NCBI RefSeq assembly: GCF_023195695.1
Contig: NZ_JALPQG010000005.1
Location: 124,001-188,000 of the forward strand
Source: Aliiroseovarius sp. S1339
GTDB lineage: Bacteria > Pseudomonadota > Alphaproteobacteria > Rhodobacterales > Rhodobacteraceae
Direction: 5' to 3'
DNA: 64,000 nucleotides
Position numbers and translations under genes: made by a program. The notes under the pieces were generated by a model, which searched no databases, was not told the DNA's origin, and saw only the letters and a list, made by a program, of their open reading frames with translations. Below, piece by piece: positions 3,454-62,931 of this stretch (positions within the stretch are counted from its first letter, which is position 1; every line of letters begins with the position of its first letter).

Positions 3454-3530
3454 GCTCTGGTAGCTCAGCTGGATAGAGTACTTGACTACGAATCAAGGGG
3501 TCGGGGGTTCGAATCCTCCCCAGAGCGCCA
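3454..3530 (+). tRNA. tRNA-Arg(ACG)
   Basis: A 77-base cloverleaf is visible. The acceptor GCTCTGG (3454-3460) pairs with CCAGAGC (3520-3526), followed by discriminator G and an encoded CCA. The D stem is GCTC/GAGT. The anticodon stem CTTGA/TCAAG encloses loop CTACGAA with anticodon ACG at 3488-3490. The T arm carries GGTTCGAATCC. It reads arginine CGU codons, and CGC after A-to-I editing. Its 3' side borders decayed non-coding DNA and the putative iodate-reductase locus, a common position for island insertion. Confidence 0.96.
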
Positions 3531-3547
3531 TTTTCTATTTTGTAGGA

Positions 3548-3588
3548 CGTCAGACGAAATTGACCTTTGCGTCATAAACTGACCCAAT
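3548..3588 (-). repeat. transposon-end-like repeat, left flank of idr locus
   Basis: Read on the minus strand this stretch has ATTGGGTCA, then ATGACG, then AGGTCA, then TGACG. The same order and similar spacing occur at both ends of the 13235-13392 element on the other side of the idr locus. Such multi-box ends with TTGGGTCA/ATGAC units resemble IS21-type termini; that family assignment is an inference. No transposase gene is attached. Confidence 0.45.
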
Positions 3589-4318
3589 TCACCACGAACC
3601 GGATGTTTGTGGTCAAACCGCGGATATCCGGTTCGAACCCTTTATTTGAGTTCGCACGAAGTCCCCGTGGCGGTGATGCTCAGTAGAGTACGATCGGCTG
3701 TCAACATCTGAATGATGTGATGTGGTCTTGTCTTCTGACCGAGAAAACCCGCGGAGAATGAATCGCGTGACTTGATGCTGGGCGGCGCATTCGCACCGCC
3801 CGGTTTGTCACCAATGAATCTGTGTGGCCATGAAGGATAGCTCACGTCAAGTGGCGGCGAGTAGCCCACTCAACCTGCGGTCGGTTCACATAACACCCCT
3901 TAGACGTCGTTCACGCTTTGTTATACCGCCGCCGATCACCCACCGGTTGCGAAACCTGCCATTCGAGACGCCATTCTACGACGACCGCAATGCGGGACAA
4001 ACCAGACTTGTGCCGGTGCAGCTATTGCTGACGCAGAGAACACTCGCAATTGCAGCATCGCATATTTGGAAGCACAGTACGTTTCACCAAACCGGTCGTT
4101 CACACGCGCCGATCTCGGCAGATCTCAAACTGGCTTTCGCTACGGTCTGCCCAAACAGTCGAGACGCGGACAAAGCACCCTTTCGCTGCGACGGCATTGG
4201 CCAATAGCAAGAGCCAACATTCGTAGCAGAGCTTTAGAAACCGCGGCTTGGGTCTTCGTCCGTGAGTGTGACACTCAATTCCGTTCGCTGAACGTAAGAT
4301 AAGCCCAAGTGTCGCCAA

Positions 4319-4353
4319 TAAAAGACCACCGCCGCCGTAAACCCCGGCGGCGG
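4319..4353 (-). terminator. rho-independent terminator of the idr operon
   Basis: A 9-bp perfect stem (4329-4337 with 4345-4353, CCGCCGCCG/CGGCGGCGG) encloses a 7-base loop. On the minus strand it is followed by TGGTCTTTTATT. It begins 10 bases beyond the idrA stop, as expected for the end of the P-P-B-A transcript. Confidence 0.8.
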
Positions 4354-4362
4354 CGCGATCAT

Positions 4363-7026
4363 TCAGCTGATAGGACGTGGCTTGAGCGACATTTCAAGGA
4401 AGTTGTCCTTGTAGGCACTCTCGCCGATCTTACGCAGCACACCGCGGCCCAGCTTGTAACGATAGTTGCCAGAAACAGGGTCTGGCACTGCGTGGCAAAC
4501 AGAGTTTGCCATAGACCCCGGGTAGTTGAACGCAGCCTTGGCAACGCCCGGGCGCATCTCGTCCGAGACGATGGCGACGGCGACGAACTGGCCTGTTGTG
4601 GTCTTGATGTGGCCGTTTTCCATGAGCTTGGAAAAGCTCAGGTCGTCCGACTTAACCCCGACCGGTTCGCCCGATTGGACATAGACCGTGTCGTTGAAAC
4701 CTTCGACCAAATCGCCCGACTCGATGCCCGCTGGGGCTGCGTCGTCAGGGTGGATTACGATGTGCGGCCATGGCCAGCGCTTCGCCAGATATGGTTTGCG
4801 CAGGTCGTCGAAGCCAGATTGCCAGGTCTCGTTCACACGACCATTGGTAATCCATATCTCGCCCTTTTCGGCGCGGGGCTTGATCGCCTCGTAGAAATCG
4901 GACCAGCTGTCATTTTCCCACGGGGTTTTCAGCATGTTGGCTTTCCCGGTGTGCGTGCCGAACGCATACAGCCACTTCTGGTCGTATGTATCGCCTTCAA
5001 CCTCACCCCAATCATTGGACGCATCATGCAGGCGTTTCGTGCCGACCATTTCACCGTCAATAAGTCTGATCGGCGTCTGGATACCAGTGGTGCCCAACTC
5101 GCGCAGTTTTTCATGCGCCTTCTTGCCTTCTTTCTTCGCTTCTTGCGCCAGCACATGATAGCTGAGCACGCCGCCGCGCGAATGGCGCGAGGCTTCTTCG
5201 AAGATGTCGTTTGACTCTTTCCAGTCAAACCCGGCAAAGCCCATTTTTTGCGCAAACAGGCCGATCGCCCACCAATCGGGTTTCGCCTCGCCCGGTGCGT
5301 CATTGAACTTGGCATACAGGCGCAGGCGACGCTCGGCGTTACAGCGCGCGAAGTCCACTTCGCCCCAGCCGGCAGCCGGCAGAACGATATCGGCATATTG
5401 CGTGTTAAGCGGATCAACAGGGTAGATATCGCTATCCACCAGCATCATGCCGCCACTGTCAGCGCGCGCTTTGAAGACTTCAATCAGGTGATCGCGGTCA
5501 ACCGAGCGGGGCTGATGTTCATTGCGCACCGTGAGGTCTGCAACACGGCTGGCCAGTTCTTGGCTTGCCAGCATGGCCGCGAACCATGTGCACCCGATGG
5601 TCCAGAAAAACTTCACTTTGCCGTCCATCACCCAGCGGTCCACATTCAGCGCCTTCTTGCGCCGCCCGGGGTGTTTTTCGGGCGAAAGGAAGCCTTTGCC
5701 TCCGCCGGGGTTCATCCCGCCGCGCTGGTGTCCGCCGCCACGGCTGATCACTTGGCCGGGGCGGTTGCCCGCGCCGCATATCAGGCCAACAGAGGCCAGC
5801 GATGCCGTGTTCATGTAGTTGTTAGACCAGTAGTTGCCCTTCTCCAGCATGAACGAGGTTTTAGGCCGTGTGCCGTCTTCGCGTGGTTTGGCGATCATCT
5901 CGGCTGCTTGCTGGATCAACTCGGCGTCAATGCCTGTGATCCGCGAAGCCTCGGCCAGTTCTGCGGCGGGCTCGTTCGCTATGAATTTCTGGAAATCTTC
6001 CCAGTCGGACTGCCAACGCCCCCATGTGGTGCGCCACTGCCAGCGGGTGTTGCGCGTGCCACGGCCAAAGCCGCTTTCGATTTCCCACTTCGTGTTCACC
6101 CAATTGTCGATGAACTCCTGATCCTGCCAGCCATTGTCGATGATGATCTTGGCAAGCGCCAGATGCAGCACCGTGTCTGTACCGGGAATGATGGGAAGCC
6201 AAAGACCACCGTTCTTGAGGCCGTATTCAACGCCCATCGTCTTGTGCGGGGTGACGAAGATCATCGTCTTGTCCGGGTTTTCGCCTTGCATCATCCATTC
6301 GGTGAACAGCACCGTTTTGGTTTCATACGGGTCGACGCCAGACAGGAACGCCACATCGCATTTCCCCCAATCATCATAGGAGGCCGCGAACGAGTTTATA
6401 CCAGCATCGTCAAGCCCTGCGGCGTCTTCTGCATTTTGTGGTTTGTCGTGCGGCGCATAGACAGGTGTGCCAATGGCGCGGTCTACCAGTTTGCGAATGG
6501 CGAAGGTGTTCTCAAAATACTCATAGCTGTAGGTTTTCATCCCCCACGCATGTTCACCATGTTTTTCAAGCACGTGTTTGGACACTTCCGCCATCACATC
6601 GGTGGCGAGATCCCAGCTGACCGGCGTCAGAACACCGCCAATGCGGATCATCGGGTATTTAAGACGGTCGCGTGTTGGCGTTTCTGGATTATAGATCTTT
6701 TGTGCCAGCGTTCCGCCGCGCACCGAATGGTTGCCGTCGCGATTGACCACTTCTGCATCCGGATCCGCGATCACCACAAAATGGTGTTGGCGACCTTCGT
6801 GCATACCGATGTTGTGCTGCGATTCCGCGATCCAAGGCACACCGCCGCTTGGAAAATCGACGCCAAAGACGTTTTGGTCGGCGTTTGTCCCACCTTCTGA
6901 GCCAACTGGCCAGCGGTAGACTTTATAGGAGCACGCAACGATGCAATAGCTGCACGCAGTCGTGATCACCTCAGCATTGGGAGGAGGCAGCGGAACGGAA
7001 TTTCTGTTTTGTACATTGCTAGTCAT
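4363..7026 (-). CDS. idrA: AioA-like molybdoenzyme, putative iodate reductase catalytic subunit
   Basis: An 887-residue DMSO-reductase-family protein of the arsenite oxidase (AioA) type, expected to bind Mo-bis-MGD and a 3Fe-4S cluster. Cluster ligands are visible as C25-x2-C28-x3-C32. Ser101, in N-H-S-V-R-G-G, stands where other family members have a fourth Cys, the AioA hallmark. R429-G-G-G-H433 and H193 resemble residues that form the arsenite pocket of AioA. There is no signal peptide, so export probably relies on the Tat signal of the Rieske partner. Two di-haem peroxidase genes in the same operon are the signature of dissimilatory iodate reductase (IdrABP1P2), not arsenite oxidase. Automatic tools would likely call it arsenite oxidase large subunit. 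GGAG precedes the ATG, 15 bases after the idrB stop. Confidence 0.85.
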   Translation of the reverse strand: MTSNVQNRNSVPLPPPNAEVITTACSYCIVACSYKVYRWPVGSEGGTNADQNVFGVDFPSGGVPWIAESQHNIGMHEGRQHHFVVIADPDAEVVNRDGNHSVRGGTLAQKIYNPETPTRDRLKYPMIRIGGVLTPVSWDLATDVMAEVSKHVLEKHGEHAWGMKTYSYEYFENTFAIRKLVDRAIGTPVYAPHDKPQNAEDAAGLDDAGINSFAASYDDWGKCDVAFLSGVDPYETKTVLFTEWMMQGENPDKTMIFVTPHKTMGVEYGLKNGGLWLPIIPGTDTVLHLALAKIIIDNGWQDQEFIDNWVNTKWEIESGFGRGTRNTRWQWRTTWGRWQSDWEDFQKFIANEPAAELAEASRITGIDAELIQQAAEMIAKPREDGTRPKTSFMLEKGNYWSNNYMNTASLASVGLICGAGNRPGQVISRGGGHQRGGMNPGGGKGFLSPEKHPGRRKKALNVDRWVMDGKVKFFWTIGCTWFAAMLASQELASRVADLTVRNEHQPRSVDRDHLIEVFKARADSGGMMLVDSDIYPVDPLNTQYADIVLPAAGWGEVDFARCNAERRLRLYAKFNDAPGEAKPDWWAIGLFAQKMGFAGFDWKESNDIFEEASRHSRGGVLSYHVLAQEAKKEGKKAHEKLRELGTTGIQTPIRLIDGEMVGTKRLHDASNDWGEVEGDTYDQKWLYAFGTHTGKANMLKTPWENDSWSDFYEAIKPRAEKGEIWITNGRVNETWQSGFDDLRKPYLAKRWPWPHIVIHPDDAAPAGIESGDLVEGFNDTVYVQSGEPVGVKSDDLSFSKLMENGHIKTTTGQFVAVAIVSDEMRPGVAKAAFNYPGSMANSVCHAVPDPVSGNYRYKLGRGVLRKIGESAYKDNFLEMSLKPRPIS

Positions 7027-7041
7027 TTTTGTCTCCTTGCC

Positions 7042-7593
7042 TCAAGCGCCCGAGGGGTTTTGGCTGTAGCCGTAAAACAGACCCATCACGCCTGTTGCGA
7101 CGATATCGTCACCGTCAATTTCCAAGATGATTTGCGGCAGGCTGGCCGAAGAGTGACCCGAAACGATCATCCCGTGACGCGAAAGATCGAACGTCGACAA
7201 GTGCAAGGGGCACGGCCCCAGCACAGAGTGCTGCGACTTGAACTCAGCCTCGCCCATGTAGCCGCCCATATGTGGACAGATGGTGTTGAAGGCGACAATG
7301 TTGCGCGCCTCACCCACGCCCCCGCCGGCTTCTTCTTCCAGCATCATCACGAGGTTTTCGATATCATCGGTCGGGTAGTTGAAAGAAATCGCCTTGCCCT
7401 TTTCAAGCGCGGACACTTTGCCAATAACCTTGCGCGTATAAGACGATGAGACGAGCTCTTGCGCCTCAGCGCCGCGGCCCACCGTGGCCAGCACGGTTAC
7501 AGATGCGCCGCCAAGGATCAGGAAGTTTCTGCGGCTAATGGATTGGCAGGCGTGGTTTAGGCCTGCGCCTTTGGCTTCTACTGGCTTGTTCAT
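7042..7593 (-). CDS. idrB: Rieske iron-sulfur subunit of the idr complex
   Basis: A 183-residue AioB-like Rieske protein, the electron-transfer partner of IdrA in the periplasm. A twin-arginine signal (S-R-R-N-F-L, Arg21-Arg22, then a hydrophobic stretch and A-E-A cleavage) should export the folded heterodimer. The 2Fe-2S ligands are C106-P-H108 and C128-P-L-H131. Both cysteines that form the usual Rieske disulfide are missing: box 1 reads C-P-H-M-G-G and box 2 C-P-L-H-L-S. That is known for some AioB proteins and affects redox potential. The ATG overlaps the stop of the upstream peroxidase gene in ATGA, so translation is coupled. An upstream in-frame start would sit inside that gene and is less likely. 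Confidence 0.87.
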   Translation of the reverse strand: MNKPVEAKGAGLNHACQSISRRNFLILGGASVTVLATVGRGAEAQELVSSSYTRKVIGKVSALEKGKAISFNYPTDDIENLVMMLEEEAGGGVGEARNIVAFNTICPHMGGYMGEAEFKSQHSVLGPCPLHLSTFDLSRHGMIVSGHSSASLPQIILEIDGDDIVATGVMGLFYGYSQNPSGA

Positions 7594-8708
7594 TTTGCAA
7601 ACTCCGCCCATGTATTGGTTTCGGGAAGCTCTGGTTCATCAAGAAGCAGAGGCTCATCCATTGACAGCGCCTCTAGGAAAGCGACCAGGTCCGCTTCCTC
7701 TTCACTGCTAAGGCCAAGCGGTGTCAGACCTGCTGTCTGACCTTCGCCGCCACCTGCGTTATAGAAGGCGACCACATCGGCCAGCGTCTCTAAGCCACCG
7801 TTGTGCATGAAGGGTTCTGTCCAGCGCAGCTCGCGCAAGGACGGCGTGCGGAACTTGTGCTTGTCATCCGGCCGTTTGGTCTGGTGATAAAGTCCCAGAT
7901 CGTCGGCTCCGGTTTTGTAGTCCTCATGCCGCCCGCCCTTCTGGTAGAGCTCCCAACGCAGGGTGATCTGATACAGCGGGTCTTCTTCGAATTCCGCCGC
8001 CGCTGGGACGCCTATGTTATAAAACTTCTGGTCTGAAACCAGCGCACCGTTGTGGCACGAGATGCAGTTTGCCTTACCGTTGAAAAGCTCCATCCCACGT
8101 TTGGCTTCATCGCTCATTGCCGTTTCATCGCCCGCAAGGAAACGGTCGAAAGGCACCTTTGTGGCGTCGGTGACAATCGTGCGCTCATAGGCGGCAATTG
8201 CCATCCACGCCGCGGAAATGTGCGGCACCGTGCCGAACACCTCTTTGAAGGCCGCAACATACTCCGGAACGAAACGCAGACGCATTTCCATCATCGAGCC
8301 GTCACCGTTGCCAGCAACTCCGCCGCCAGCCGCGGCCTTGGCTTGCAACTCGAGGCTGCGACTTGCGCCATCCCAGAACAGCTTGTTGTAATACGCCGAA
8401 TTCACGATCGTCTGGCTGTTGCGCCAGTGCTGCGTGCCCGGATAGCCGAACGATATCGGAGTAGCAGTGCCCCAGCCCGCATCCGGCAGGTGGCAGGCCG
8501 AACAGGGCATCGCGCCGTTGCCAGACAGGCGCCCATCCCAGAACAGTTTTTCGCCCAAGGCGATCTTTTCTGGGGTCATCGGGTTATCGGCAGGAATCGG
8601 CGCCGGGCCGAGGGTTGCCAGCGGCGGGACGTCTTGCGCCATCGCGGCTGTGCTGACGAACGAGATCAGGGCGACCTGCCCCAGCAGTTGCTTTGCTTTA
8701 TTTTTCAT
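7590..8708 (-). CDS. idrP: di-haem cytochrome c peroxidase / MauG-like protein of idr operon
   Basis: A 372-residue secreted protein with a Sec signal peptide (cleavage near A-M-A-Q, residue 24). Two haem-c motifs, C69-S-A-C-H73 and C215-I-S-C-H219, are spaced as in bacterial di-haem cytochrome c peroxidases. In iodate reducers such proteins are proposed to remove peroxide or hypoiodous acid formed beside IdrAB; I infer the same role. Start at ATG 8708 is set by the signal peptide and by GGAGG eight bases upstream; longer frames overlap the previous gene. It lies 13 bases after that gene and shares ATGA with idrB. I cannot say whether it corresponds to P1 or P2. Confidence 0.87.
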   Translation of the reverse strand: MKNKAKQLLGQVALISFVSTAAMAQDVPPLATLGPAPIPADNPMTPEKIALGEKLFWDGRLSGNGAMPCSACHLPDAGWGTATPISFGYPGTQHWRNSQTIVNSAYYNKLFWDGASRSLELQAKAAAGGGVAGNGDGSMMEMRLRFVPEYVAAFKEVFGTVPHISAAWMAIAAYERTIVTDATKVPFDRFLAGDETAMSDEAKRGMELFNGKANCISCHNGALVSDQKFYNIGVPAAAEFEEDPLYQITLRWELYQKGGRHEDYKTGADDLGLYHQTKRPDDKHKFRTPSLRELRWTEPFMHNGGLETLADVVAFYNAGGGEGQTAGLTPLGLSSEEEADLVAFLEALSMDEPLLLDEPELPETNTWAEFAK

Positions 8709-8721
8709 ATCGGGCACCTCC

Positions 8722-9813
8722 TCAATTCTCGCCGACAACGCGCATGGCGTAGTCCGGCAGTTCTGGAACGGCGACATTCGGCGCGTCACCTGTCAGGCTT
8801 TCAAGGAAGGCGACAAGATCGGCCGCCTCTTCGTTGGTGAGGTCCAGCGCGGGCAGTTGCTCGTTCCCTGCGTTATAGAAATCAACAACATCAGCCAGTG
8901 TGGCGTGGACGCCGGAATGCATGTAGGGCGCAGTTTGGCCCACATCCCAGAGCGAGGGCGTCGCGAATTTACCGTCGTCGCCATCATCTTTTGTGACCGC
9001 ATAGTGCCCTGCATCTTCACGCAAGTTCATGTAGTTCGGCGTGCCAAGGGTGGCGAAGAAGCGCAGCATAATGATCTGGCGCTCTGCATCCTCTTGCAGC
9101 TCGGTGTTGCCGGGAACGCCCGTGGCGTGAACACCACCATCCGAGAGCGTTGGGCCATTGTGGCATTCGATGCAGCCTGCTTTGCCAGCGAACAAATCCA
9201 TGCCGCGCGTTGCTGCTTCAGAAAGCGCAGCCTGGTCGCCATTCAGATAGGCATCAAAGGGCGCGCCTTCGGTTCGAATGGTTTTGAGATACTCGCCAAG
9301 CGCGCTGTAAATCTTGCCACCGTAAGGATCACCTCCAAAGGCTTCCTCGAACATTTCAACATATTCCGGCACTTGCTTCAGCCGTTCCTGTGCAAGGCGG
9401 CTGTCCATGTGCATGGTGTGACTCTCAGTCATCATATCGCGCGAGACGGTGCTCATGTCGGCGCCGTCAAGGCGGCCGTCCCACATCAGCACGTTGCTGA
9501 ACGAGGTGTTGAACAGGGATTTCGCGTTGCGAAAGTGCACGCCGCCTGCATAGGCGTCAGACAGCGCCTGACCGTCGCCCCAGCCATTGACAGGGTCGTG
9601 ACAGGACGAACATGAATTGCCGACATCGCCAGAAAGGCGGTCATCAAAGAACAGCATCTCGCCCAGTTTTGCTTTGGCTTGGTTGACCTCATTGGGTGCG
9701 GGTAAAGGCGCAAAATCTGCGGCCCGACCTGTTGCAGGGGCTGACGCAAGAACAAGCAGCAAAGCCGCGGTTCCTTTCAACATCTGATATCTCGTAAAGT
9801 GCCTGCTTCGCAT
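8722..9813 (-). CDS. idrP: second di-haem cytochrome c peroxidase-like protein, first gene of idr operon
   Basis: A 363-residue periplasmic di-haem protein with a signal peptide ending near G-R-A-A-D. Haem motifs are C68-S-S-C-H72 and C214-I-E-C-H218. It is a clear but divergent paralogue of the next gene, sharing the C-terminal pattern H-N/S-G-x-x-A/E-T-L-A-D-V-V-x-F-Y-N-A-G. A pair of distinct peroxidases with a Rieske/molybdoenzyme pair matches the IdrP1/P2 arrangement. Start ATG 9813 has GGAGG eight bases upstream. About 185 bases separate it from the upstream kinase gene on the same strand. The tandem-repeat operator candidate lies in that gap. Confidence 0.87.
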   Translation of the reverse strand: MRSRHFTRYQMLKGTAALLLVLASAPATGRAADFAPLPAPNEVNQAKAKLGEMLFFDDRLSGDVGNSCSSCHDPVNGWGDGQALSDAYAGGVHFRNAKSLFNTSFSNVLMWDGRLDGADMSTVSRDMMTESHTMHMDSRLAQERLKQVPEYVEMFEEAFGGDPYGGKIYSALGEYLKTIRTEGAPFDAYLNGDQAALSEAATRGMDLFAGKAGCIECHNGPTLSDGGVHATGVPGNTELQEDAERQIIMLRFFATLGTPNYMNLREDAGHYAVTKDDGDDGKFATPSLWDVGQTAPYMHSGVHATLADVVDFYNAGNEQLPALDLTNEEAADLVAFLESLTGDAPNVAVPELPDYAMRVVGEN

Positions 9814-9939
9814 TGCAAAGACCTCCCAGTTGATGCGGCTCAAGAGCGATCAAGGGCGTTCAAACACATGTCCTGAGACGCAGATCACCCCTGATTGCTC
9901 CCAAAAGCATAGGCAGGCACTTGCGCTGATTTGTTTCGG

Positions 9940-9979
9940 GCAGAGTTACAATTTGCGATATTTTGTGACATTTTGTGAC
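9940..9979 (-). promoter_or_regulatory. tandem 10-bp direct repeats, candidate response-regulator site
   Basis: On the minus strand GTCACAAAAT occurs twice back to back (9979-9960). A 7/10 match (ATCGCAAATT) follows, then a weak fourth unit starting GTAAC. Ten-bp phasing places each unit on the same DNA face, as OmpR/PhoB-family dimers require. It lies about 147 bases upstream of the first idr gene and 20 bases past the kinase stop. Binding by the regulator at 12273 is inferred. Confidence 0.5.
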
Positions 9980-9998
9980 GGCGCGTTTTGGGCGACTG

Positions 9999-12188
9999 TC
10001 AGGCTGTTTGCAGCATCTCTTTGATGCGCTGTGCAAGCTGTGAGGGTTCGACAGGCTTATTTAGGAAGCCGGGCTTTGGACCATGTAAGTCCAGATCGCT
10101 TTTGCGATAGGCAGAACAGAACAAGATGGGGCATTGCGGGCGCAGCGCGCGGATTTCAGCGGCCACTTCATCACCCGACATTTCCGGCATCACCAGATCA
10201 AGGATGACCAGATCGTAACGATCCGAGTTGTCGCGGAACCTTGCAAGGCCCGATGTGGCATGGCTGAAAGCTTCAACCTGATAGCCAAGACGCTGCAGAA
10301 GGCGCCGGAAAATCGACGCGACTTCGACTTCGTCATCAATGATCAGGATCTGGCCGCGACCGCGTGGCAGGGCTTCGGCTTGTGGGACTTTGGCCAGCGC
10401 CAATTGACCAGCCGCTGGCAACCACAGGATAAAGCGCGCGCCCTGCCCTTGCTTGCTGTCGACCGTGATCTGCCCGCCCATCTCCTGAACAAGCCCTTGA
10501 ACAACAGCCAGGCCCAGACCTGTCCCCTTGCCGATTGGCTTGGTTGTGAAAAACGGCGCGAAAATGCTTTCCAAAGTAGACTGTGACATGCCTTGGCCAT
10601 CATCTTCGACGGTAAGTCTGACCCAGCCGTCGTTGCGCGCAGCCAGCCCCGGCGGCTCTGTCTCTGGTGGGCTGACCGAAATTTTGATCAATCCGGATTT
10701 ACCGCCAATGGCTTCAGCGGCATTGGAACATAAGTTCATAAGGATCTGGTGCAGGTGGGTCGGGTCCGCCAGAACAGAGCTTGGACAGTCGCGATCTGGC
10801 GTTTCAATAACAATCGTGGGCGGCATGGCGGCGCGCAGCAAGCGGGCAACTTCGCCAATTACGGCGCAAAGATCGGTGGCAACAGCAACGCCCGGTTCGC
10901 GGCGGGCAAATGTCAGAAGCTGGCGCACAAGACTTTGCGCCCGCCGGGCGGCGATGTCGATCTGTTCAACTTCGCCAGCGAGGTCACTGCCCTCTTCCGC
11001 ATCCAGGGAGGCCATATGCGCCGCGCCAATGATTGTTGTCAGGATGTTGTTGAAGTCATGTGCGATACCGCCTGCCATAAGGCCCACGGCCTCCATCTTC
11101 TGGGCACGGGTCACTTGCTCCTGAGCGCGGCGCTTTTCGGTGATATCCTCTCCGATGCCAATGAAATTACGCACCATGCCGTCTGCGCCCTTGAGCGGTA
11201 AGATCGTGGTTTCCGCCCAATAGCTGCCGCCTGATTTTCGCAAGTTGCGAAACACACCGTGCCACGGCTCGCCACGCATCAGGTTCTTGCGTATATCGCC
11301 ATAGGTCGTGTCCGGTGTATCGCCGGACTGGAGCATTCTGGGGGTTTTGCCCGTCAACTCGTTCAGGCTCCAACCGGTAACTTCAATGAATTTCGGATTG
11401 GCGTATTCGATATGGCCATCGGTATCCGTGATCAAGATTGTTGCGGGGCTTTGCTCGACCGTCTCTGCCAACAGCTTTTGTGACTGTTCAAGGCGGCGTC
11501 TGTGGACCAACTCTTCCGACAAGTTGTCCATCGCTTGCCGCATATCGCGCAGAAGCAGCATCATGAGAAATCCCAGCGACAGGGCAACCGTCACAAGCGC
11601 GAACATCGACACGAAGCCAACACCAATAAGAGTTTGCCCGGTGGAAACCGCCGCGGCGACACGTTTGGTGCTCAGATCACGGTTTTGCTGCCAAATCTGC
11701 TCCAACTTGCTAAGCGCAAAGATTGCGGCGCTGTCATCGACGCGGACCAGCGCATCTGTTTGTGCAGCAGGCCAACCCTCGCGCGCGGCCTTGGTTGCTA
11801 TTGGCAGTTTCGCCTCATACTGCGCGATTGTGGCGGCTATGGCGGTCAGGGCAAGGCGTTCTTCGTCCGGCAAAGGTTCAGCAAGGTAGTTACTGAGCAC
11901 AGCGTCGAATTGTTCCAGTTGAACAACAACGCGGCTTCGATAGACCTCTTCCCCTCGTAGCACGTAGTTTTTGAAATTATGAATGATACCGCCATAGCCA
12001 AGGTAACCCCGCAGCGAGCTGATCCAGTCACCCTTCTTGGCGGTTTCATCGGTGTATCCGGCCCAACTGGCGGCAACTTCCTTGAATTGAGCCCGGGTTT
12101 GCATGCCAAGAAACAGACCCGTTACAACAGTAGAGATGAGCAGAATAGACGCGGCCAAGCCGATTAATCTGCTCCGTGTAATAGGCAT
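9999..12188 (-). CDS. membrane hybrid sensor histidine kinase (PAS-HisKA-HATPase-REC)
   Basis: A 729-residue sensor. Transmembrane helices at about 8-28 and 186-213 flank a helical periplasmic domain of about 155 residues. A PAS domain (about 240-352), a phospho-acceptor helix with His377 in G-G-I-A-H-D-F-N-N, an ATPase domain with D-D-G-Q-G-M and G-T-G-L-G-L-A, and a C-terminal receiver domain with V-I-L-D-L-V-M-P-E follow. The stimulus is unknown; the genomic position suggests it governs the idr operon. ATG 12188 is chosen because it opens a classic positively charged start; a GTG 33 bases upstream is possible. It is divergent from the response regulator with 84 bases between them. Confidence 0.9.
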
Positions 12189-12272
12189 CGTCTTCTTCCC
12201 GATCAGGCGAACCGGTTGCACTGCCGGTGTATTTGAGCGACATCAAGAAGGACTGAAAGAGGGGTGAGGTCA

Positions 12273-12995
12273 ATGGCTGAGAGAATTCTTGTCGTCGATG
12301 ACGACCGGCAGCTGACATCTTTTTTGGATCGTTTTCTGAGCAAGCAAGGCTATCGGGTCACAACCGCCGGGACGGCAAGTCAGATGGGACTTGCTATGGA
12401 ACATCAGGAGTTTAACCTGATTGTTCTCGACATCGGTTTGCCGGATGGTGACGGGTTCGAACTCACGCGGGAATTTCGAAAACACTCTAACTTGCCGATC
12501 ATTGTTCTGACGGCGCGCGATGATGTTTTTGACAGGGTTATTGGGCTGGAGCTGGGGGCGGACGACTATATCACCAAGCCGTTCGAGCCCCGCGAATTGC
12601 TGGCACGCGTCAAATCAGTTCTGCGCAGAAGCGGCGCGGATGATGCCCCCGTTCTCGAAGGCGCCCCGGAACGGTATCGCGATTTTTCCGGCTTCCGGAT
12701 AGACTTGGTGTCTCGCATGCTCAGCCTGAGAGACGACGGCACCGAGATCAACGTGACGTCAACGGAATACGCCTTGTTGCTGGCGTTGACGGACACCCCG
12801 GGGAAAGTTCTGGCGCGTTCGGAGATCCTTGAGGCGCTCTACGGCAACTCCACCGCCGTCACCGATCGCGCGATCGACGCTCACATGGTGCGTCTGCGCC
12901 GCAAGCTGGGCCAAGGGGACGGTGAAGCGCCCTTGATCCGCACAGTCCACGGCGTGGGCTATACGATTGCAGCAAGTATTTTAAACGTCTCCTAA
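12273..12995 (+). CDS. OmpR/PhoB-family response regulator
   Basis: A 240-residue two-domain regulator. The receiver domain has acidic D10-D11, phosphorylation site Asp53 in V-L-D-I-G-L-P-D-G-D, and the conserved Lys in T-K-P-F-E-P. The C-terminal winged helix ends in the usual R-A-I-D-A-H-M-V-R-L-R-R-K-L and R-T-V-H-G-V-G-Y. It probably pairs with the divergent kinase. ATG 12273 is preferred over an in-frame alternative at 12264, with purine-rich GAGGGGTGAGG just upstream. The tandem repeats at 9940-9979 are its most plausible site in this window. Confidence 0.92.
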   Translation: MAERILVVDDDRQLTSFLDRFLSKQGYRVTTAGTASQMGLAMEHQEFNLIVLDIGLPDGDGFELTREFRKHSNLPIIVLTARDDVFDRVIGLELGADDYITKPFEPRELLARVKSVLRRSGADDAPVLEGAPERYRDFSGFRIDLVSRMLSLRDDGTEINVTSTEYALLLALTDTPGKVLARSEILEALYGNSTAVTDRAIDAHMVRLRRKLGQGDGEAPLIRTVHGVGYTIAASILNVS

Positions 12996-13137
12996 GCGCT
13001 CCTCACAGAGGATTCATGCAACCTTCTACTTTTAATTGAGCGAGGCTATCTTGGTTTGAGGCAAACCGTCCTAACATCATGAAATGCCACCGACTGTCGC
13101 CCTTATGCCCGCGCGGATGATCATACATCTGCCGCTT

Positions 13138-13169
13138 TTTTCTCGCTGCGAACGCGCGCAGCGAGAAAA
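13138..13169. repeat. 13-bp perfect inverted repeat
   Basis: TTTTCTCGCTGCG (13138-13150) and CGCAGCGAGAAAA (13157-13169) flank a 6-base loop. The T-run is on the left and the A-run on the right, so on neither strand does a T-tract follow the stem. It is therefore not a standard terminator. Confidence 0.7.
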
Positions 13170-13234
13170 TCGAATTCACACTCTGGGCTCGTTCCTGACC
13201 TTCGCCGCGCTCTGCACTAAGGGCCGCTTTTCGT

Positions 13235-13392
13235 ATTGGGTCAGAATTGCTTGACGTTTGGGTCAATATTGAATGACGTGATTTTCTTGTTTCCTGAGGT
13301 TTTGGGCGCCAAAAGAGTCAAAGGTTCGTGACGTTCCACATATTTGTGGAATGTCATACGAACCTGACCCAAGTGTCATAGCGTGACCCAAT
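13235..13392. mobile_element. small repeat-bounded element, MITE or deleted IS remnant
   Basis: The left end reads ATTGGGTCA, TTGACG, TTGGGTCA, ATGACG. The right end read inward on the other strand gives ATTGGGTCA, ATGACA, TTGGGTCA, ATGACA, so the two ends are multi-box inverted repeats. Between them lies an imperfect hairpin centred near 13343 with arms GGTTCGT...TTCCACA and TGTGGAA...ACGAACC. There is no coding capacity. The architecture suggests a non-autonomous or internally deleted insertion sequence, perhaps IS21-like. Confidence 0.5.
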
Positions 13393-14580: not shown

Positions 14581-14767
14581 ACGCGCATCTTAGATAGGCA
14601 GTTTGCCTTGGCAACTGGATCATGGGAATGAATGACCCATTGGTCCGCACTGCCGTCATTCTGGAAATGGAAATGCTGCACGATGGATGATTGGCCAGTC
14701 TGGGGAAGCCGCGCCGCAGAGATGGACGCTTAGCCCAATGTCCAGTCAGGACCGTGAGCCCTGCGCC

Positions 14768-15214
14768 ATGATCGGCCGGATTTCTGCGGGAGCGTTGGGG
14801 GCCGGGCTGCCCCCGCGCGATCATTTGGTTTCGCGACAGCACCAGAAGCTTGTGCGTTCGCAAATCGTTAAACGGGTGTTTGCTGTGCAGGACGTTTTCG
14901 TACCGGCGATAAAGCTTACGGATCTGCCGAACATTTTCGTCGATGACACAATTCGCTCGGTCACATATTTCCACATGCTTTTCGACCAACACGAGGTCAT
15001 CTTTGCAGAAGGCGCACCAACCGAAAGCCTGCTTACTGGACCCGACGCGCTAAGGGCGCTCGGCTCTGAAGCGCGAGACGATATCCTGACCCTTTTTCCG
15101 GAAGTCACCGAAGTGGATCATGTCCCGGTGCCAGCCCGTCGCATCCCGCCAGATGAGTTGCAGAAACAGCTCATCGAACGCCATTTGAAAATCCACAAAC
15201 CTAGTGTGGAATGA
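14768..15214 (+). pseudogene. truncated Hint-domain protein (C-terminal half)
   Basis: Residues from R-I-S-A-G-A-L-G-A-G-L-P-P-R-D through V-S-R-Q-H, V-P-A-I-K-L-T and L-F-D-Q-H-E-V-I-F-A-E-G-A-P-T-E-S match the second half of the Hint_2 proteins that are multicopy in Rhodobacteraceae. The first half, with the catalytic cysteine region and the N-terminal calcium-binding or secretory part, is missing upstream, where the sequence is non-coding. About 148 codons remain open. I treat it as a decayed fragment; expression as a short protein cannot be excluded. Confidence 0.7.
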
Positions 15215-16571: not shown

Positions 16572-19337
16572 TCACTGCAGGGTCACGGGACGTCTACCGA
16601 TCGAGCTCTGATCTTGGCCAGAAATGTAGTGCAAGATGTATTCACCAGGATCGCTTGGCAATTGCAGCACGGCGGGGTTTCCGCTGGCTGTCGTCGCTGT
16701 CACTTCGGCTGTTTCGGAGCCAATTTTGGTGATCGCGATGGAATCCCCGTCCGCATCTGGCCCGACCCAGAAGACCTCAAGCTGACCTCCGGCCGTTGCG
16801 GTATCGGCGGCCTCAAGCACTGCGGTTTCCGTCACAACTTCGCTGGCCTGAACGACCTTCAACGAGCGGCGCGCCAGCACTTTTTGCGGGTTGCCGTGGG
16901 CAATATAACGGATCAGATAAGTGCCTGTTTCATCGGGCACGGTCAGCCTGACGGGGTTGCCACGTTCAGTGTATTGATAATTTAAGTATTCGCCGGGTTT
17001 TGACCCAATCGCGGCGACCGAGATATAGTCATTCTTATTGTTTGGGCCGACATAGGACACGTCAACCTCTGTGCCGAGGACAGCAGATTCTGGGGCGTCC
17101 AGAACCACATTCACCGCAACGATGTTGATATCACGCGCTGCAAGGATACGTTGTGGGTTGCCATGGGCAATATAGCGCAGTTGATACTGCCCCGGTTCTA
17201 GCGGCATCTTGAGCTTCGTCGGGTTGCCGCGTGTGGTGTAAGTGTAATGCGCATATTTATTGGGCTGCTGATCTGGTGTTGCGATTGCGATGTAGTCATT
17301 TTTGTTGTCGGGTCCATCCCAACTGACGTCAATCGTCGCCCCAGCATCAGCGCTACTTGGCGCGTCAAGCGAAACCTGCGCGGCCACGACGCTGATATCG
17401 CGGGTCGCCAGTATTTTGTCGGGATTGCCGCTGGCGATATATCTGATCTGATAGTCACCCGGCTCCAGCGGCATTTTCACTGACGCGGGGTTTCCTCGGG
17501 TCGTATAAGCGTAGTTTTCGTATTTGTGAGGTGCCTGATCCACCGCCGCGACCGAGATGTAATCGTTCTTATTGTCCGGCCCTACCCATGCGACATCGAC
17601 TGGCGAGCCGGCGATTGCTTCAGCTTGTGCGTCCAGTGTGACCTGCGCTGCGACCACCACGATTGGACGCGTTGCGATCACCTTGGCCGGGTTGCCAGCC
17701 GCGACATAGCGCAATTCATACGTGCCGGGTTCGAGCGGCATTTTAACCGATGCAGGGTTTCCACGCGTGGTATAGGCATAATTGGTGTATTTGTGGGGCT
17801 GCTGATCTAACGCCGCGACCGAGATATAGTCGTTCTTGTTGTCCGGCCCATTCCATTCGACATTGGTTGCATTGCCCGCCACGACTTCATCAGGTGCATC
17901 TAGGGTCGCGGTCACTGCGACAACCGTTAAGGGGCGGCGTGCCAATACCCGTGCTGGATTGCCCTGCGCCACATAGCGCACTTCGTAAGATCCGGGTTCT
18001 ATGGGTGACGTCACCTGAGCGGGGTTGCCACGCACGGTGTAGGCATATTTTTCGTAAGCGGTGTCCTTGGCATCTAGGGCCGCAATCGCGATGTAGTCGT
18101 TTTCGTAGTCGGGGCCATCCCATGTCACATCCAACTCGGACCCGGCAGCAATCTCGTCCGCCGCATCTAACGTGACCGCTAGGTCGGTGATGGTGATTGC
18201 GCGCGTGGCCGATACGCTTTGCTTGCCGGGGACACTGCGGATGTAGCGTAGCTCATACGCACCGGACTCCAGCGGCATGCGTACCGCAACGGGGTTACCT
18301 TCAGAGATATAGGCATAGTCCAGGTATTTCCCTAGTTTGGCGTCAGGCGGCACAACCGTCACATAGTCCTGTTCACCGATTTCGGCATCCCAAGCGACGT
18401 TGATTGTTGCACCAATGGGCGCGGTCTCGGCGGCCTCCAGCGACGCTTGGTAGCTTATTTCTGGCAGTTCGAGTGTGATGGTTTTCGCCTGCCCGGCGAC
18501 TGTGAAATCTGCCGTTGCTGTCGCTTCGTCTTCCAAGCGCAACACCGACGCCGAATAAGCTCCCGGCAACAAATCCAGACCCGTTTCGCCCAGCGGGTCA
18601 GTTTGATTGCCGGTGCCGTCAGGAGCGAAAGACCAAACCAGCCCTTCGTTGATGACTGGTCCGCCTTTTCCCAACGTGGCCCGGAAGGTGATCGCGACCG
18701 GCATCGGCTCGGGTTCGGGTGCGGCGGCGATTTCAACCAAAGCTGCGCCCAATTCGCTCGCGTCATCGGCCGATCGGAAGGTCCCGCCGGTTTCAGCGGC
18801 TAGGCATTGCATCTGGGCAACCGCATCCGGGTCGTTGATGTCGAACCCAACAACATGTGCGGTAAAGTCGACCCCTGCTTCTTCCAAGGCACGGGCGGCG
18901 GCACAAGGATCAGGATGACAGGTTTCGATCCCGTCTGACACAAGGATCACCGTTGCCTTTTCTTCGGTGTAGCGCAGCGATTGCGCGGCGGCGATCACAG
19001 CGTCAGTCATCGGGGTTTTCCCCTTTGGCTTGATCGCATTCACAGCACTGGAAATTGCCCCTTGGTTGCCGTTAGCCGCTGGCACCAGCGTTTCAATGTC
19101 AGAGCAATCCCCTTTGCGCCGATGTCCATAGACCGTCAATCCAAGCATCTGATCTTGCGGAATGGTCTGTAGTAAATCGCCGATAACTTCCTGTGCGATG
19201 GTGATTTTTGCTGTGCCGTCTATCTGCCCCCACATCGACCCTGAGCCGTCCAAGATCAAGATAGTCGAGGCGCGATCTTGGGCTGTTGCTGGAAATGACA
19301 GGAAAATCGACAGAAAGAATGCTGCAACGAAACGCAT
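16572..19337 (-). CDS. large secreted von Willebrand-A protein with seven tandem repeats
   Basis: A 921-residue protein. The signal peptide (1-19) is followed by a vWA domain (about 23-205) with an intact metal-binding motif, D30-G-S-G-S34-M, and a linker rich in Pro-Glu. From about 290 to the end come seven beta-rich repeats of about 85-95 residues. Most share G-P-D-N-K-N-D-Y-I-S-V-A, a short Lys-Tyr segment, R-G-N-P, P-L-E-P-G-x-Y-x-L-R-Y-I and A-R-R. The middle repeats are the most alike, implying recent duplication; the first and last are degenerate. vWA proteins bind ligands through divalent metal. The repeats may form a rigid surface or periplasmic stalk. No neighbouring secretion genes point to a partner. 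Confidence 0.85.
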   Translation of the reverse strand: MRFVAAFFLSIFLSFPATAQDRASTILILDGSGSMWGQIDGTAKITIAQEVIGDLLQTIPQDQMLGLTVYGHRRKGDCSDIETLVPAANGNQGAISSAVNAIKPKGKTPMTDAVIAAAQSLRYTEEKATVILVSDGIETCHPDPCAAARALEEAGVDFTAHVVGFDINDPDAVAQMQCLAAETGGTFRSADDASELGAALVEIAAAPEPEPMPVAITFRATLGKGGPVINEGLVWSFAPDGTGNQTDPLGETGLDLLPGAYSASVLRLEDEATATADFTVAGQAKTITLELPEISYQASLEAAETAPIGATINVAWDAEIGEQDYVTVVPPDAKLGKYLDYAYISEGNPVAVRMPLESGAYELRYIRSVPGKQSVSATRAITITDLAVTLDAADEIAAGSELDVTWDGPDYENDYIAIAALDAKDTAYEKYAYTVRGNPAQVTSPIEPGSYEVRYVAQGNPARVLARRPLTVVAVTATLDAPDEVVAGNATNVEWNGPDNKNDYISVAALDQQPHKYTNYAYTTRGNPASVKMPLEPGTYELRYVAAGNPAKVIATRPIVVVAAQVTLDAQAEAIAGSPVDVAWVGPDNKNDYISVAAVDQAPHKYENYAYTTRGNPASVKMPLEPGDYQIRYIASGNPDKILATRDISVVAAQVSLDAPSSADAGATIDVSWDGPDNKNDYIAIATPDQQPNKYAHYTYTTRGNPTKLKMPLEPGQYQLRYIAHGNPQRILAARDINIVAVNVVLDAPESAVLGTEVDVSYVGPNNKNDYISVAAIGSKPGEYLNYQYTERGNPVRLTVPDETGTYLIRYIAHGNPQKVLARRSLKVVQASEVVTETAVLEAADTATAGGQLEVFWVGPDADGDSIAITKIGSETAEVTATTASGNPAVLQLPSDPGEYILHYISGQDQSSIGRRPVTLQ

Positions 19338-25996: not shown

Positions 25997-26112
25997 CTGC
26001 CTGTGGACGTGGCTATTGATGCTTGGAATGAAAAATATTGCAAGCGTATTCATCAACCGCTACCGTTGAAGGATCAAGGCTGCCCAGAAAGCCTGATCAA
26101 CTAAAAATTGTC

Positions 26113-26150
26113 TTGGCGGTGCCTCTTGGACGGCATGGGAATACCGCCAA
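26113..26150 (+). promoter_or_regulatory. leader hairpin before the ABC binding-protein gene
   Basis: TTGGCGGT (26113-26120) pairs perfectly with ACCGCCAA (26143-26150) across 22 bases, ending just before the ribosome-binding site GGGAG. It could stabilise the messenger or gate translation. No riboswitch class is recognised. Confidence 0.45.
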
Positions 26151-26167
26151 CAACGGGAGAAATCGGA

Positions 26168-27403
26168 ATGAACATCACTTTGAAATCGACGGTCGCTGCC
26201 AGCGCTCTGGTCGTCGCTGCCGGGGCCGCGACGGCCGAATGCAGCATCGACGGCGGTCGCGTCAACATCATCGGCAATGAATTTCCTGCGATCCAAACCA
26301 TCGCCAGCGCTGCCGCTGAATGCGCGGGCGTCAAAGTCGAGTCGAACCTGACTGCGGATCACCAGACGCTGAACGTTGCTGGCATGTCGGGCAACCCCGC
26401 TGAATATACCAGCGCGGTTGTTGCAAATTCATCCATCGTGGCGCTGATCAATGAAGATGTCATCCAACCGTTGGACGCACTTGTCGCGGAATACGGGCAA
26501 GACATCCCCAAGCGTCAGCTGATCACCGTTGACGGAAAAGTCATGGCTGTCGCATTCATGGCGAACGCGCAGACGCTGGCCTATCGTGCCGACGTTCTGG
26601 AGGAAGTCGGTATGGACGTGCCCACGACCTATGAGGGCGTACTGGAAGCCGCCGAAGCGATCCGCGCCGCTGGCATCATGGAGCATCCCGTTGGTGGACC
26701 CTACGCGGCTGGTTGGAACCTCGCGCAAGAATTCAACAACATGTATCTGGGCCACGGCGGCGAGTTTTTCGAGCCCGGCACAGCCAATGTTGCGATCAAC
26801 AACCCGCAAGGCGTTGCGACGCTTGAAATGATGAAAGCGCTGACCAAATACATGAACCCCGACTATCTGACCCACGATTCCAACGGCACGCAGGCCGAGT
26901 GGGAAGCAGGCAACGTCGCGCTGATGCACATGTGGGGCAGCCGGATGCAGATTCTCATGGATGACGAAGGTTCCGAGCCGCAGGTCTATGAGAACACCAA
27001 GGTTGCAGGCCCGCTTTTGGTCGGCGACAGCGGTGTGCCCGCGTCCACCCTGTGGTGGGACGGCTGGACCGTCGCCAAGAACATCAGCGACGAGGATGCC
27101 GCGGCGACCTTCCAAGCCCTGACCTATGCTGTTTCGCCTGCGATCCTGAATGATACCACAATGGATCAGGCCGTTTGGCTGATCGACGGATACGAGCCCG
27201 CGCCTGTATCCGAAGGCGTTCTGGCGGCTGTCGCTGCAGGCACGAAACCTTACCCGATGCTGCCCTATATGGGTTTGTTGCACACGGCTGCGGGTGACAA
27301 CATCGCCGACTTCCTGACCGATAAGGAAAGTGCCGAGCAGACGCTGGCGGATATCGAAGCGGCCTATACGGCTGCTGCCAAAGAACAAGGCTACGTCAAC
27401 TAA
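26168..27403 (+). CDS. ABC transporter substrate-binding protein, sugar (CUT1) type
   Basis: A 411-residue periplasmic binding protein with a signal peptide (cleavage A-T-A-E at about 23). It shows family-1 binding-protein features: an aromatic, acidic ligand cleft region, W-E-A-G-N-V-A-L-M-H-M-W-G-S, and a conserved hinge. It is the first gene of the 14-gene cluster and captures the pathway's substrate, which is not identifiable from sequence. ATG 26168 has GGAG eight bases upstream. The hairpin at 27417-27456 after its stop should keep its level above that of the permeases. Confidence 0.87.
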   Translation: MNITLKSTVAASALVVAAGAATAECSIDGGRVNIIGNEFPAIQTIASAAAECAGVKVESNLTADHQTLNVAGMSGNPAEYTSAVVANSSIVALINEDVIQPLDALVAEYGQDIPKRQLITVDGKVMAVAFMANAQTLAYRADVLEEVGMDVPTTYEGVLEAAEAIRAAGIMEHPVGGPYAAGWNLAQEFNNMYLGHGGEFFEPGTANVAINNPQGVATLEMMKALTKYMNPDYLTHDSNGTQAEWEAGNVALMHMWGSRMQILMDDEGSEPQVYENTKVAGPLLVGDSGVPASTLWWDGWTVAKNISDEDAAATFQALTYAVSPAILNDTTMDQAVWLIDGYEPAPVSEGVLAAVAAGTKPYPMLPYMGLLHTAAGDNIADFLTDKESAEQTLADIEAAYTAAAKEQGYVN

Positions 27404-27416
27404 GCCTGACTTTCAG

Positions 27417-27458
27417 AAGGGCGCGTCGATCCGTCGGTGGAAGCCGTCGCGCCCTTTT
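27417..27458 (+). terminator. intercistronic hairpin with T-run after the binding-protein gene
   Basis: AAGGGCGCG (27417-27425) pairs with CGCGCCCTT (27448-27456), with TTTT at 27455-27458. Such partial terminators or stabilising stems follow binding-protein genes in many ABC operons and explain unequal expression. Confidence 0.6.
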
Positions 27459-27490
27459 CACTGCCCCCATTCACAACAGGCAGCTTCGCT

Positions 27491-28513
27491 ATGAAACACA
27501 GTTCTTTTTTCTGGTTCGTTCTTCCGTCCTCGTTGTTGATGTTGGCATTCATTGCCTTTCCGATTGTGTCGGTCGTGACCCAGTCATTCTACAGCGCGCA
27601 CGAGCAGGTCGTTGTTGAGGTGGAAAATTGCGGGCCCTTTGGCTGCAAGATGGAAACCTCGGTCGACCAGGTCGCCACCGCCGCCATTCGCGAAGCCGAA
27701 CCGATGGGCAAGTTCGCGGGATTGAGTATTTACACAGACCGCAACCACCTTGCCTTCGGCGAAGTCGCCGCGGCTTGGGTCAGAGCGGACGGGTTGCCCG
27801 ATTTCGGTCGCAGCCTGATGAACCTGCCATTTTACAAGGCGCTCGGCTTTACCCTGACCTACACGGCCGTCGTCACACCGCTGACGATCATCCTGGGCTT
27901 CTTCATTGCCATCGCGGTCAATTCTGTCGCCGTCGCCCTTAAGGGCCCGACGATCTTTTTCTCGCTGCTGCCGATGATTGTGACGCCGCTTGTTGGCTCT
28001 TTGATCCTTTTTTGGATGGTCGATGCCCGCGGGATTCTGGGGACCGGTTTGCAGTGGCTGACGGACGATCCGACCCTGTCGGTCAAGGCGTCAACGGGGC
28101 TGATGTGGATCATGCTGATGGTCTATGGCATCTGGCACGCGGCACCCTTCGCGTTCGTCGTTTTCTATGCTGGCCTGCAGACGGTCAACACCGACACGCT
28201 TGAATCCGCGATGGTCGACGGCGCGACCCGGTGGGAACGTATCCGCTTTGTCGTCCTGCCGCACTTGTTGCCGCTGGTCACCTTCGTTGCACTGATACAA
28301 TTGATGGACAACTTCCGTGTGTTCGAGCCGATTGTGAGTTTCCAGGCCTCCGCACATGCCACTTCGCTGTCCTACGCGATCTTTAACGACCTGGGAGGCG
28401 AGACGCGCTTGTTGTCCTCGGCTGCTGCAACATCGGTGCTGACCATCATCGGCATCGCCATTCTTTTGTCGCCCGTCCTTGTTCGGACATGGCGCGACTT
28501 CGACCGCAAGTAA
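27491..28513 (+). CDS. ABC transporter permease, MalF-like
   Basis: A 340-residue inner-membrane permease with a first helix at about 7-27, then about 85 residues that probably lie outside, then five more helices. The ATPase-coupling loop reads E-S-A-M-V-D-G-A-T-R-W-E-R-I-R-F-V-V-L-P. Its partner is the next gene. ATG 27491 fits the first helix; a longer frame beginning at 27437 would overlap the hairpin region. Confidence 0.88.
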   Translation: MKHSSFFWFVLPSSLLMLAFIAFPIVSVVTQSFYSAHEQVVVEVENCGPFGCKMETSVDQVATAAIREAEPMGKFAGLSIYTDRNHLAFGEVAAAWVRADGLPDFGRSLMNLPFYKALGFTLTYTAVVTPLTIILGFFIAIAVNSVAVALKGPTIFFSLLPMIVTPLVGSLILFWMVDARGILGTGLQWLTDDPTLSVKASTGLMWIMLMVYGIWHAAPFAFVVFYAGLQTVNTDTLESAMVDGATRWERIRFVVLPHLLPLVTFVALIQLMDNFRVFEPIVSFQASAHATSLSYAIFNDLGGETRLLSSAAATSVLTIIGIAILLSPVLVRTWRDFDRK

Positions 28514-28527
28514 GAGGACGTAAGCCC

Positions 28528-29406: not shown

Positions 29407-29416
29407 GGGCTTAGAT

Positions 29417-61921: not shown

Positions 61922-61942
61922 GCATCCAAAGCTACGCCTACG

Positions 61943-61967
61943 GGGGGCGGCGATTAGGTCCGCCCCT
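61943..61967 (+). repeat. intercistronic hairpin after smoE
   Basis: GGGGCGG (61944-61950) pairs with CCGCCCC (61960-61966) across a 9-base loop, with a further G-T pair outside. No T-run follows. It probably protects the smoE messenger and lowers downstream expression. Confidence 0.5.
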
Positions 61968-62040
61968 CGACCCCAAGATCAAACCTCCATAATTTGACCT
62001 CGTTTCAGGCGGCATCGTCCGTCAACGAAGGAGATGTGTC

Positions 62041-62919: not shown

Positions 62920-62931
62920 GGAGGGCACGAC

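Follow-up and report, generated by a model that had tools for sequence, protein, structure and literature searches.

Does the operon at positions 4363 to 9813 of a 64,000-nucleotide stretch of the Aliiroseovarius sp. S1339 genome (contig NZ_JALPQG010000005.1; the whole stretch is called the window below) encode an arsenite oxidase, as profile annotation would have it, or an iodate reductase, and what switches it on? Our comparisons indicate that it very probably encodes the iodate reductase IdrABP1P2. The idr operon is a new example of a known system, close to one already studied in Roseovarius; what the present analysis adds are the boundaries of the inserted block in which the operon lies, a candidate switch carried on the same block, and a tabulation of active-site residues. 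We give roughly even chances to the wider proposal that the idr block is a self-contained, transferable unit with a dedicated sensor, consisting of a hybrid kinase and an OmpR-type regulator with a four-box operator, that answers iodate at seawater levels.

Identity of the operon

The four genes lie on the minus strand and follow each other, from 9813 to 4363, as peroxidase, peroxidase, Rieske subunit and 887-residue molybdoenzyme. The last of these, idrA (4363..7026), would encode the catalytic subunit of iodate reductase with molybdopterin and a [3Fe-4S] cluster; its product carries the pattern C25-x2-C28-x3-C32 plus Ser101, and its assignment is based on identity to known IdrA proteins, on the tree and on the residues described below. 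The Rieske [2Fe-2S] subunit is encoded by idrB (7042..7593; Pfam Rieske), whose product has a twin-arginine translocation (Tat) signal motif, SRRNFL, and the Rieske motifs CPH and CPLH. Adjoining idrB is the gene for a di-haem peroxidase of the MauG/CcpA type (7590..8708), and a second di-haem peroxidase (8722..9813) is the product of the first operon gene. Both match Pfam CCP_MauG and both have a CxxCH pair, at residues 68 and 214 in one protein and 69 and 215 in the other. Following the order of accessions given for Azoarcus sp. DN11 (PMC10149662), we call the former idrP1 and the latter idrP2; their products are 78% and 64% identical, respectively, to the Roseovarius azorensis copies.

The junctions between the genes measure 13 bases, a 4-base overlap (with the idrB ATG at 7593) and 15 bases. 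Starting idrB at 7611 instead would give a 22-base junction; as judged by eye, the ribosome site is better for 7593. The coordinates, gene order, motifs and junctions that a first, sequence-only reading of this region had given were all recovered from the list of open reading frames (ORFs) and by pattern searches, the overlap with the idrB start at 7593. No signal peptide was seen on IdrA on inspection by eye; TatC is encoded in the genome. The same reading had placed one terminator after the operon. A likely intrinsic terminator does lie downstream of idrA (4355-4327, minus strand), with an 11-pair stem, 10 of its pairs G-C, and a T-rich tail, and its stem has the most G-C pairs among the 12 matches of a terminator scan; since 11.4 matches are expected by chance, the scan proves nothing by itself.

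A scan of one genome per species (84,980 species) yielded 566 matching stretches, 512 of them encoding relatives, and the best 80 were kept. Among these best 80 of 512 relatives, the window IdrA is 85% identical to that of R. azorensis, 76% to that of Notoacmeibacter marinus and 66% to that of Denitromonas iodatirespirans IR-12. Identity to plasmid arsenite oxidases is ~26-30%, and full-length AioA-like proteins from the window's own family reach 31-34%. R. azorensis and N. marinus are reported to have reduced iodate in culture (PMC11445184, Kine 2024). In a band excised from an iodate-reducing zone of a gel, R. azorensis IdrA was the top mass-spectrometry match among 24 identified proteins (PMC11445184). 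Deletion of idrA is reported to have abolished growth of IR-12 on iodate (PMC8692401).

Profile annotation would say arsenite oxidase, since IdrA scores 447 bits against the NCBIfam model arsenite_ox_L, above its cut-off of 359; the NCBIfam model of the arsenite oxidase small subunit gives IdrB 88 bits, slightly under its cut-off of 96. The idr genes on an Azonexus plasmid are annotated as arsenate reductase (azurin). Genomes with such an operon get an arsenite oxidase label from standard models, which is the misnaming that the sequence-only reading had anticipated.

A tree was built from 109 of 114 collected rows (L013, L085, L112, L032 and L056, duplicate or partial, were dropped) by a quick search under LG+G4, with the Shimodaira-Hasegawa-like approximate likelihood ratio test (SH-aLRT) as the only support; 25 of its 106 inner branches are unresolved. 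A branch with SH-aLRT 100 sets apart thirteen AioA rows, including NT-26 AioA, whose structure is known. The window IdrA falls within an 8-row set that contains R. azorensis at SH-aLRT 99, and a 13-row set with R. azorensis also has 99. A check set beforehand was whether the large subunit branches inside the arsenite oxidases; in this tree it lies outside the AioA clade, nested in IdrA, with AioA apart.

Further evidence comes from the eight conserved second-sphere residues named for NT-26 arsenite oxidase, in which alanine at Asp169 or Glu453 is reported to cut specific activity by 30 or 65%, respectively (PMC10448176). All eight are canonical in 14 of 14 AioA-like rows. The window protein has four of the eight exchanged, with Ser, Lys, Asp and Arg at Asp169, Arg201, Glu207 and Glu453 (NT-26 numbering). 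Among 100 IdrA-like rows, which include near-duplicates so that the counts are not independent events, His199, Lys413, Arg447 and His451 are kept in every row; the Asp169 position holds Ser in 99 (one gap), the Glu453 position Arg in 99 (one Cys), the Arg201 position Lys in 76, Thr in 16 and other residues in 8, and the Glu207 position Asp in 81, Ser in 18 and Ala in one. Ser for Asp169 together with Arg for Glu453 is a simple signature separating IdrA from arsenite oxidase. A substrate funnel with less negative charge may suit an anion, iodate, over neutral arsenous acid.

That the operon encodes the arsenite oxidase AioAB, with peroxidases nearby by coincidence, is extremely improbable: the score over the arsenite_ox_L cut-off and the best matches of IdrA in PDB, which are solved arsenite oxidases, speak for this identity, but we reject it on the tree and the second-sphere residues, and the low identity to arsenite oxidases and the Pfam-annotated neighbours of the operon (kinase, regulator and genes unrelated to arsenic, where three plasmid aio loci have aioXSR and ars genes) argue against it as well. 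A different objection concerns the substrate. The idrA deletion in IR-12 is the sole case in those parts of the idr literature that were available, which leaves some room for an IdrABP1P2-like operon that naturally serves a different oxyanion or oxidant (bromate, chlorate or peroxide-linked chemistry), with iodate as a side activity. We consider this quite improbable, since induction of R. azorensis idrA is reported from 0.1 micromolar iodate, under the 0.45 micromolar total iodine of seawater (PMC11445184).

Iodate reductase is also the reading favored by synteny. Of the 63 named loci with enough upstream DNA, 61 keep the order peroxidase-peroxidase-Rieske-IdrA (80 loci were fetched, and 17 with less than 3.2 kb upstream were left out). 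One exception (L116) has a second, partial peroxidase match in between, and the other (L113) lacks all three partners. The latter is a planctomycete idrA homologue (53%) with no Rieske or peroxidase match in 8 kb upstream, the sole such case of the 63. Identity to IdrA, tree and synteny thus all support the IdrABP1P2 assignment made in the sequence-only reading.

Within the family, 53 of 394 genomes have a match at 1e-30, and 21 are counted as having IdrA (identity of at least 49% over ~300 residues or more); the remaining matches are AioA-like or short pieces, two of which (G039 and G340) are possible IdrA fragments. The IdrA proteins of the family form two groups, 83-88% and 50-55% identical to that of the window, and IdrA is present in 3 of 21 genomes of the genus. 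One locus (L133, genome G211) retains only idrA residues 488-887 (88%), in the middle of a long contig and with no peroxidase, Rieske or kinase matches; it appears to be a decaying idr locus. In a congener (G009), the idr locus (L132) falls into the second of these IdrA groups, and idrA is matched there piecewise in different frames; these frame breaks look like assembly error or decay.

Kinase, regulator and four-box element

Upstream of the operon and on the same strand lies the gene for a hybrid sensor histidine kinase (9999..12188), for which Pfam delineates PAS, HisKA, HATPase and receiver domains behind a membrane sensor region; the sensor region itself has no Pfam match. Divergent from it, on the plus strand, is the gene for an OmpR-type response regulator (12273..12995, with the ORF open from a GTG at 12264), which matches Response_reg and Trans_reg_C. 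A sigma-54 regulator of the betaproteobacterial style directly upstream was considered and rejected, as Pfam places the hybrid kinase and the OmpR-type regulator there.

Among the 59 named loci whose upstream DNA exceeds 6 kb, 10 have a kinase above 45% identity upstream of idr. All 10, with R. azorensis and N. marinus among them, belong to the window's IdrA clade; nine bear the names of alphaproteobacterial taxa, and one (L054) is named only as Pseudomonadota. The OmpR-type regulator is at the same place in 9 of 80 named loci, and the kinase motif GYGGIIH[N/D]FKNYV is present in nine of nine aligned copies. At a metagenome-derived Roseovarius locus (L050), the kinase reading frame is shifted past ~residue 220. 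Searched alone against 388 family genomes, the kinase gave 15 matches at E<=1e-90, all among the 21 genomes counted with IdrA. Eleven of these matches lie directly upstream of the idr operon on the same strand, and one (G372) is on another contig than idr. In the open-licence literature searched, we found neither a description of this kinase, regulator or element nor a regulator named for such idr loci.

The gap between kinase and operon in the window reads GTCACAAAATGTCACAAAATATCGCAAATTGTAAC. It contains a predicted operator, GTCACA / GTCACA / ATCGCA / GTAACT at a 10-bp period (9944..9979, minus strand), proposed from its co-occurrence with the kinase. When scored as four GTCACA boxes at a 10-bp period (maximum 24), this element reaches 20, and nowhere else in the window reaches 17. 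The element is present in 20 of 21 idr loci with an adjacent kinase and in none of 21 tested loci without one. In a first set of 14 adjacent-kinase loci (the window included; L085 with the kinase end only; L132 from the other IdrA group), the element outscored 500 dinucleotide shuffles in 13 (p 0.002 or less), and the scores of the 14 loci totalled 271 at period 10 versus 168-182 at periods 7-9 and 11-14; a second tally gave 133 at period 10 versus 86-95 at other periods. All seven further loci, from the other IdrA group, have the element, scoring 16-22 of 24 (p 0.002 or less, with a simpler two-base-block shuffle). Scores at shuffle level were obtained for five family idr loci without an adjacent kinase (L131 and L192-L195; 12-13 of 24) and for 16 hand-picked betaproteobacterial idr loci (11-13 of 24). 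The L131 genome encodes a kinase relative (43%) at a distance of 9 kb. The exact sequence GTCACA-N4-GTCACA occurs twice in the whole genome, once at the element. Tandem 10-bp repeats suit OmpR-type regulators, and it is probable that the regulator acts on the four-box element.

At four loci (L050, L052, L085 and L128), a small cytochrome c gene precedes the peroxidase genes, and the element, as judged by eye, precedes that gene. In a congener (G007, locus L128) this small cytochrome c gene, located after the element and before the first peroxidase gene, contains an in-frame stop. With this stop, and with no such gene at the corresponding place in the window, the small cytochrome c may be dispensable.

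Several observations weigh against so close a tie between this switch and idr. Three of the 15 family kinase matches are only 40-43% identical and none of them is directly upstream: two (G089 and G023; 41-43%) lie within 10 kb on the far side, and one (G265; 40%) is on another contig. Six of the 21 family genomes with IdrA have no kinase match, although not all of them are necessarily within the 388, and only two candidates per genome were scored. Among 385 genomes of the class, 11 outside the family have IdrA at 49% identity or more, and none of these has a full-length kinase relative at 1e-90; the only full-length match is the window's own, and of two partial matches (residues 189-726 and 227-720 of 729) one is in an IdrA genome. 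The switch thus belongs to a subset of idr loci, not to all. As for the element, one locus (L094) has the kinase/regulator pair and a weak element (14 of 24, p 0.07). Allowing one mismatch, GTCACA-N4-GTCACA occurs 12 times in the genome versus 7 for a reversed control; among those 12 places the other exact one scores 18 of 24 and two score 17, so that sites comparable to the element exist elsewhere in the genome. The boxes were first spotted by eye in the window, and the first p-values are therefore not blind; the loci are related (L048 and L059 are nearly identical), so that the Fisher p of 8e-11 overstates the association; and the stretches scored were unequal, with 190 bases taken after the kinase but, at loci without it, 900 or 440 bases upstream of the first peroxidase. 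Finally, the kinase has a receiver domain, which makes the route of phosphotransfer uncertain.

Whether iodate is the signal of the kinase/regulator switch is, in our judgement, evenly balanced. The pair may instead sense redox or oxygen state and travel with idr since idr needs that control, an explanation we regard as possible but rather doubtful. It would fit a sensor region without a Pfam match, and static growth alone, without iodate, is reported to have raised idr transcripts 5.7-12-fold in R. azorensis; however, iodate raised them 8.0-14-fold in shaken and 59-102-fold in static culture, so that some iodate-dependent control exists in that species (PMC11445184), and the kinase co-occurs with idr. 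If iodate is indeed what the pair senses, we know of no iodate sensor identified earlier, and the kinase could be used as a marker of such control. Kinase, regulator and element make the question of idr regulation directly testable.

A probable insert beside tRNA-Arg

Regulator, kinase, peroxidases, idrB and idrA share a block of ~9.75 kb (3589..13342). It borders a tRNA-Arg (ACG) gene (3454..3530, plus strand; ARAGORN and Rfam), which lies 832 bases past the end of idrA. The surroundings of this tRNA gene were fetched for 8 of 20 congeners, chosen by hand. Five of the eight (L157, L159, L160, L161 and L164) have a block-free site, at which the tRNA gene is followed, directly or after ~100 bases, by window sequence from 13343 or 13426. 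Thus 3589-13342 is an insert or, less likely, a segment whose loss is common to the others. For the remaining three, the flank is missing from the stretch fetched: the contig ends there in L162, and L158 and L163 have other DNA at the site, which therefore looks like an insertion hotspot.

The block is flanked by imperfect 50-bp direct repeats (left copy 3539..3588, right copy 13343..13392) that are identical at 37 of 50 positions, whereas none of 60 shuffles exceeded 28 of 50; their position is just past the tRNA gene rather than within it. A border tRNA gene, direct repeats and a block-free site in relatives are features of tRNA-bordered islands, and horizontal acquisition appears to be the best explanation for the idr block. 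No integrase was recognised by eye in the ORFs or in the six frames of 3589-4362 and 12996-13343, and three ORFs at the insert ends have no Pfam match at 0.1. The G+C content of the block, 56.6% versus 57.0% for the window, shows no deviation. The idr locus of congener G007 is elsewhere in its genome, not at tRNA-Arg.

At one end of the insert, a 132-base stretch (3871-4001) matches at 80% L159 DNA located ~17 kb from the tRNA gene, and is possibly the remnant of a mobile element. A Hint domain (Pfam Hint_2, 1.6e-24) is encoded by a short ORF at 14687-15214, just outside the insert. Farther along the window are a gene for a long repetitive VWA protein (16572-19337) and, as judged by eye, two gene sets for sugar-type ATP-binding cassette transporters with enzyme genes around them (26108-30469 and 60614-63762).

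Proposed mechanism and comparison with known systems

We infer the following course of events for the strain. The kinase and the OmpR-type regulator of the block would switch transcription, the regulator binding at 9944-9979 in the presence of iodate and at low oxygen. IdrAB would be exported through Tat on the IdrB signal and would receive electrons from a c-type cytochrome, reducing iodate in the periplasm to hypoiodous acid, and the two di-haem peroxidases would dispose of peroxide or other oxidants that arise in the process. As the stretch from element to operon in the window holds no small cytochrome c gene, the electron donor must be encoded elsewhere. In the published model, hypoiodous acid disproportionates to iodide and iodate and the peroxidases handle oxidants (PMC8692401). 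The sequence-only suggestion that the peroxidases clear reactive by-products agrees with this published hypothesis, although their function is not established. Of its term "dissimilatory iodate reductase", the enzyme name holds, whereas "dissimilatory" may be too strong (Kine et al.).

For relatives, iodate reduction, its dependence on low oxygen and the induction of idr by iodate are published (PMC11445184). Three marine idr strains tested there, all aerobes, showed no anaerobic growth with iodate in the experiments covered by the available text (PMC11445184), so that an electron sink under low oxygen, rather than growth-supporting respiration, would be expected here; growth by iodate respiration does not seem to be implied by the operon. 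Bacterial iodate reduction in oxygen-poor seawater is described as a source of iodide, and at the sea surface this iodide reacts with ozone (PMC11445184).

The arsenite oxidases AioAB of NT-26 and of Sinorhizobium M14 pSinA share with the window proteins the cofactor motifs, a Rieske partner and the residues His199, Lys413, Arg447 and His451, but they are ~29% identical to the window IdrA and differ at four of the eight second-sphere positions. The two AioAB loci examined have no peroxidase genes and have AioXSR-type neighbours, whereas the window idr operon has two peroxidase genes. The idr cluster of Azoarcus sp. DN11 is reported to have the same four genes and an upstream two-component system; there it is an AtoS kinase with a sigma-54-dependent AtoC (PMC10149662), and in the window a hybrid kinase with an OmpR-type regulator. 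The same four genes are also reported for D. iodatirespirans IR-12 and Aromatoleum TC-10 (PMC8692401, PMC8801600); for IR-12 the IdrA identity is 66%, but upstream kinase and receiver matches there are only 24-26%. The iodate reduction island of IR-12 and Aromatoleum TC-10 is described as horizontally acquired and absent from near relatives (PMC8692401, PMC8801600). In contrast to the window, with its tRNA-Arg and imperfect 50-bp direct repeats, the insertion site of the freshwater strain TC-10 is reported to have neither inverted nor tandem repeats (PMC8801600). Closest to the window is the IdrABP1P2 system of R. azorensis (PMC11445184), which has the same genes in the same order, an IdrA of 85% identity, a kinase/regulator pair of 56-58% identity and the four-box element. 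It differs in that a small cytochrome c gene lies between element and operon, where the window has the gap only, and in that no tRNA gene was found in its 18.6-kb idr locus, whereas the insert in the window borders tRNA-Arg.

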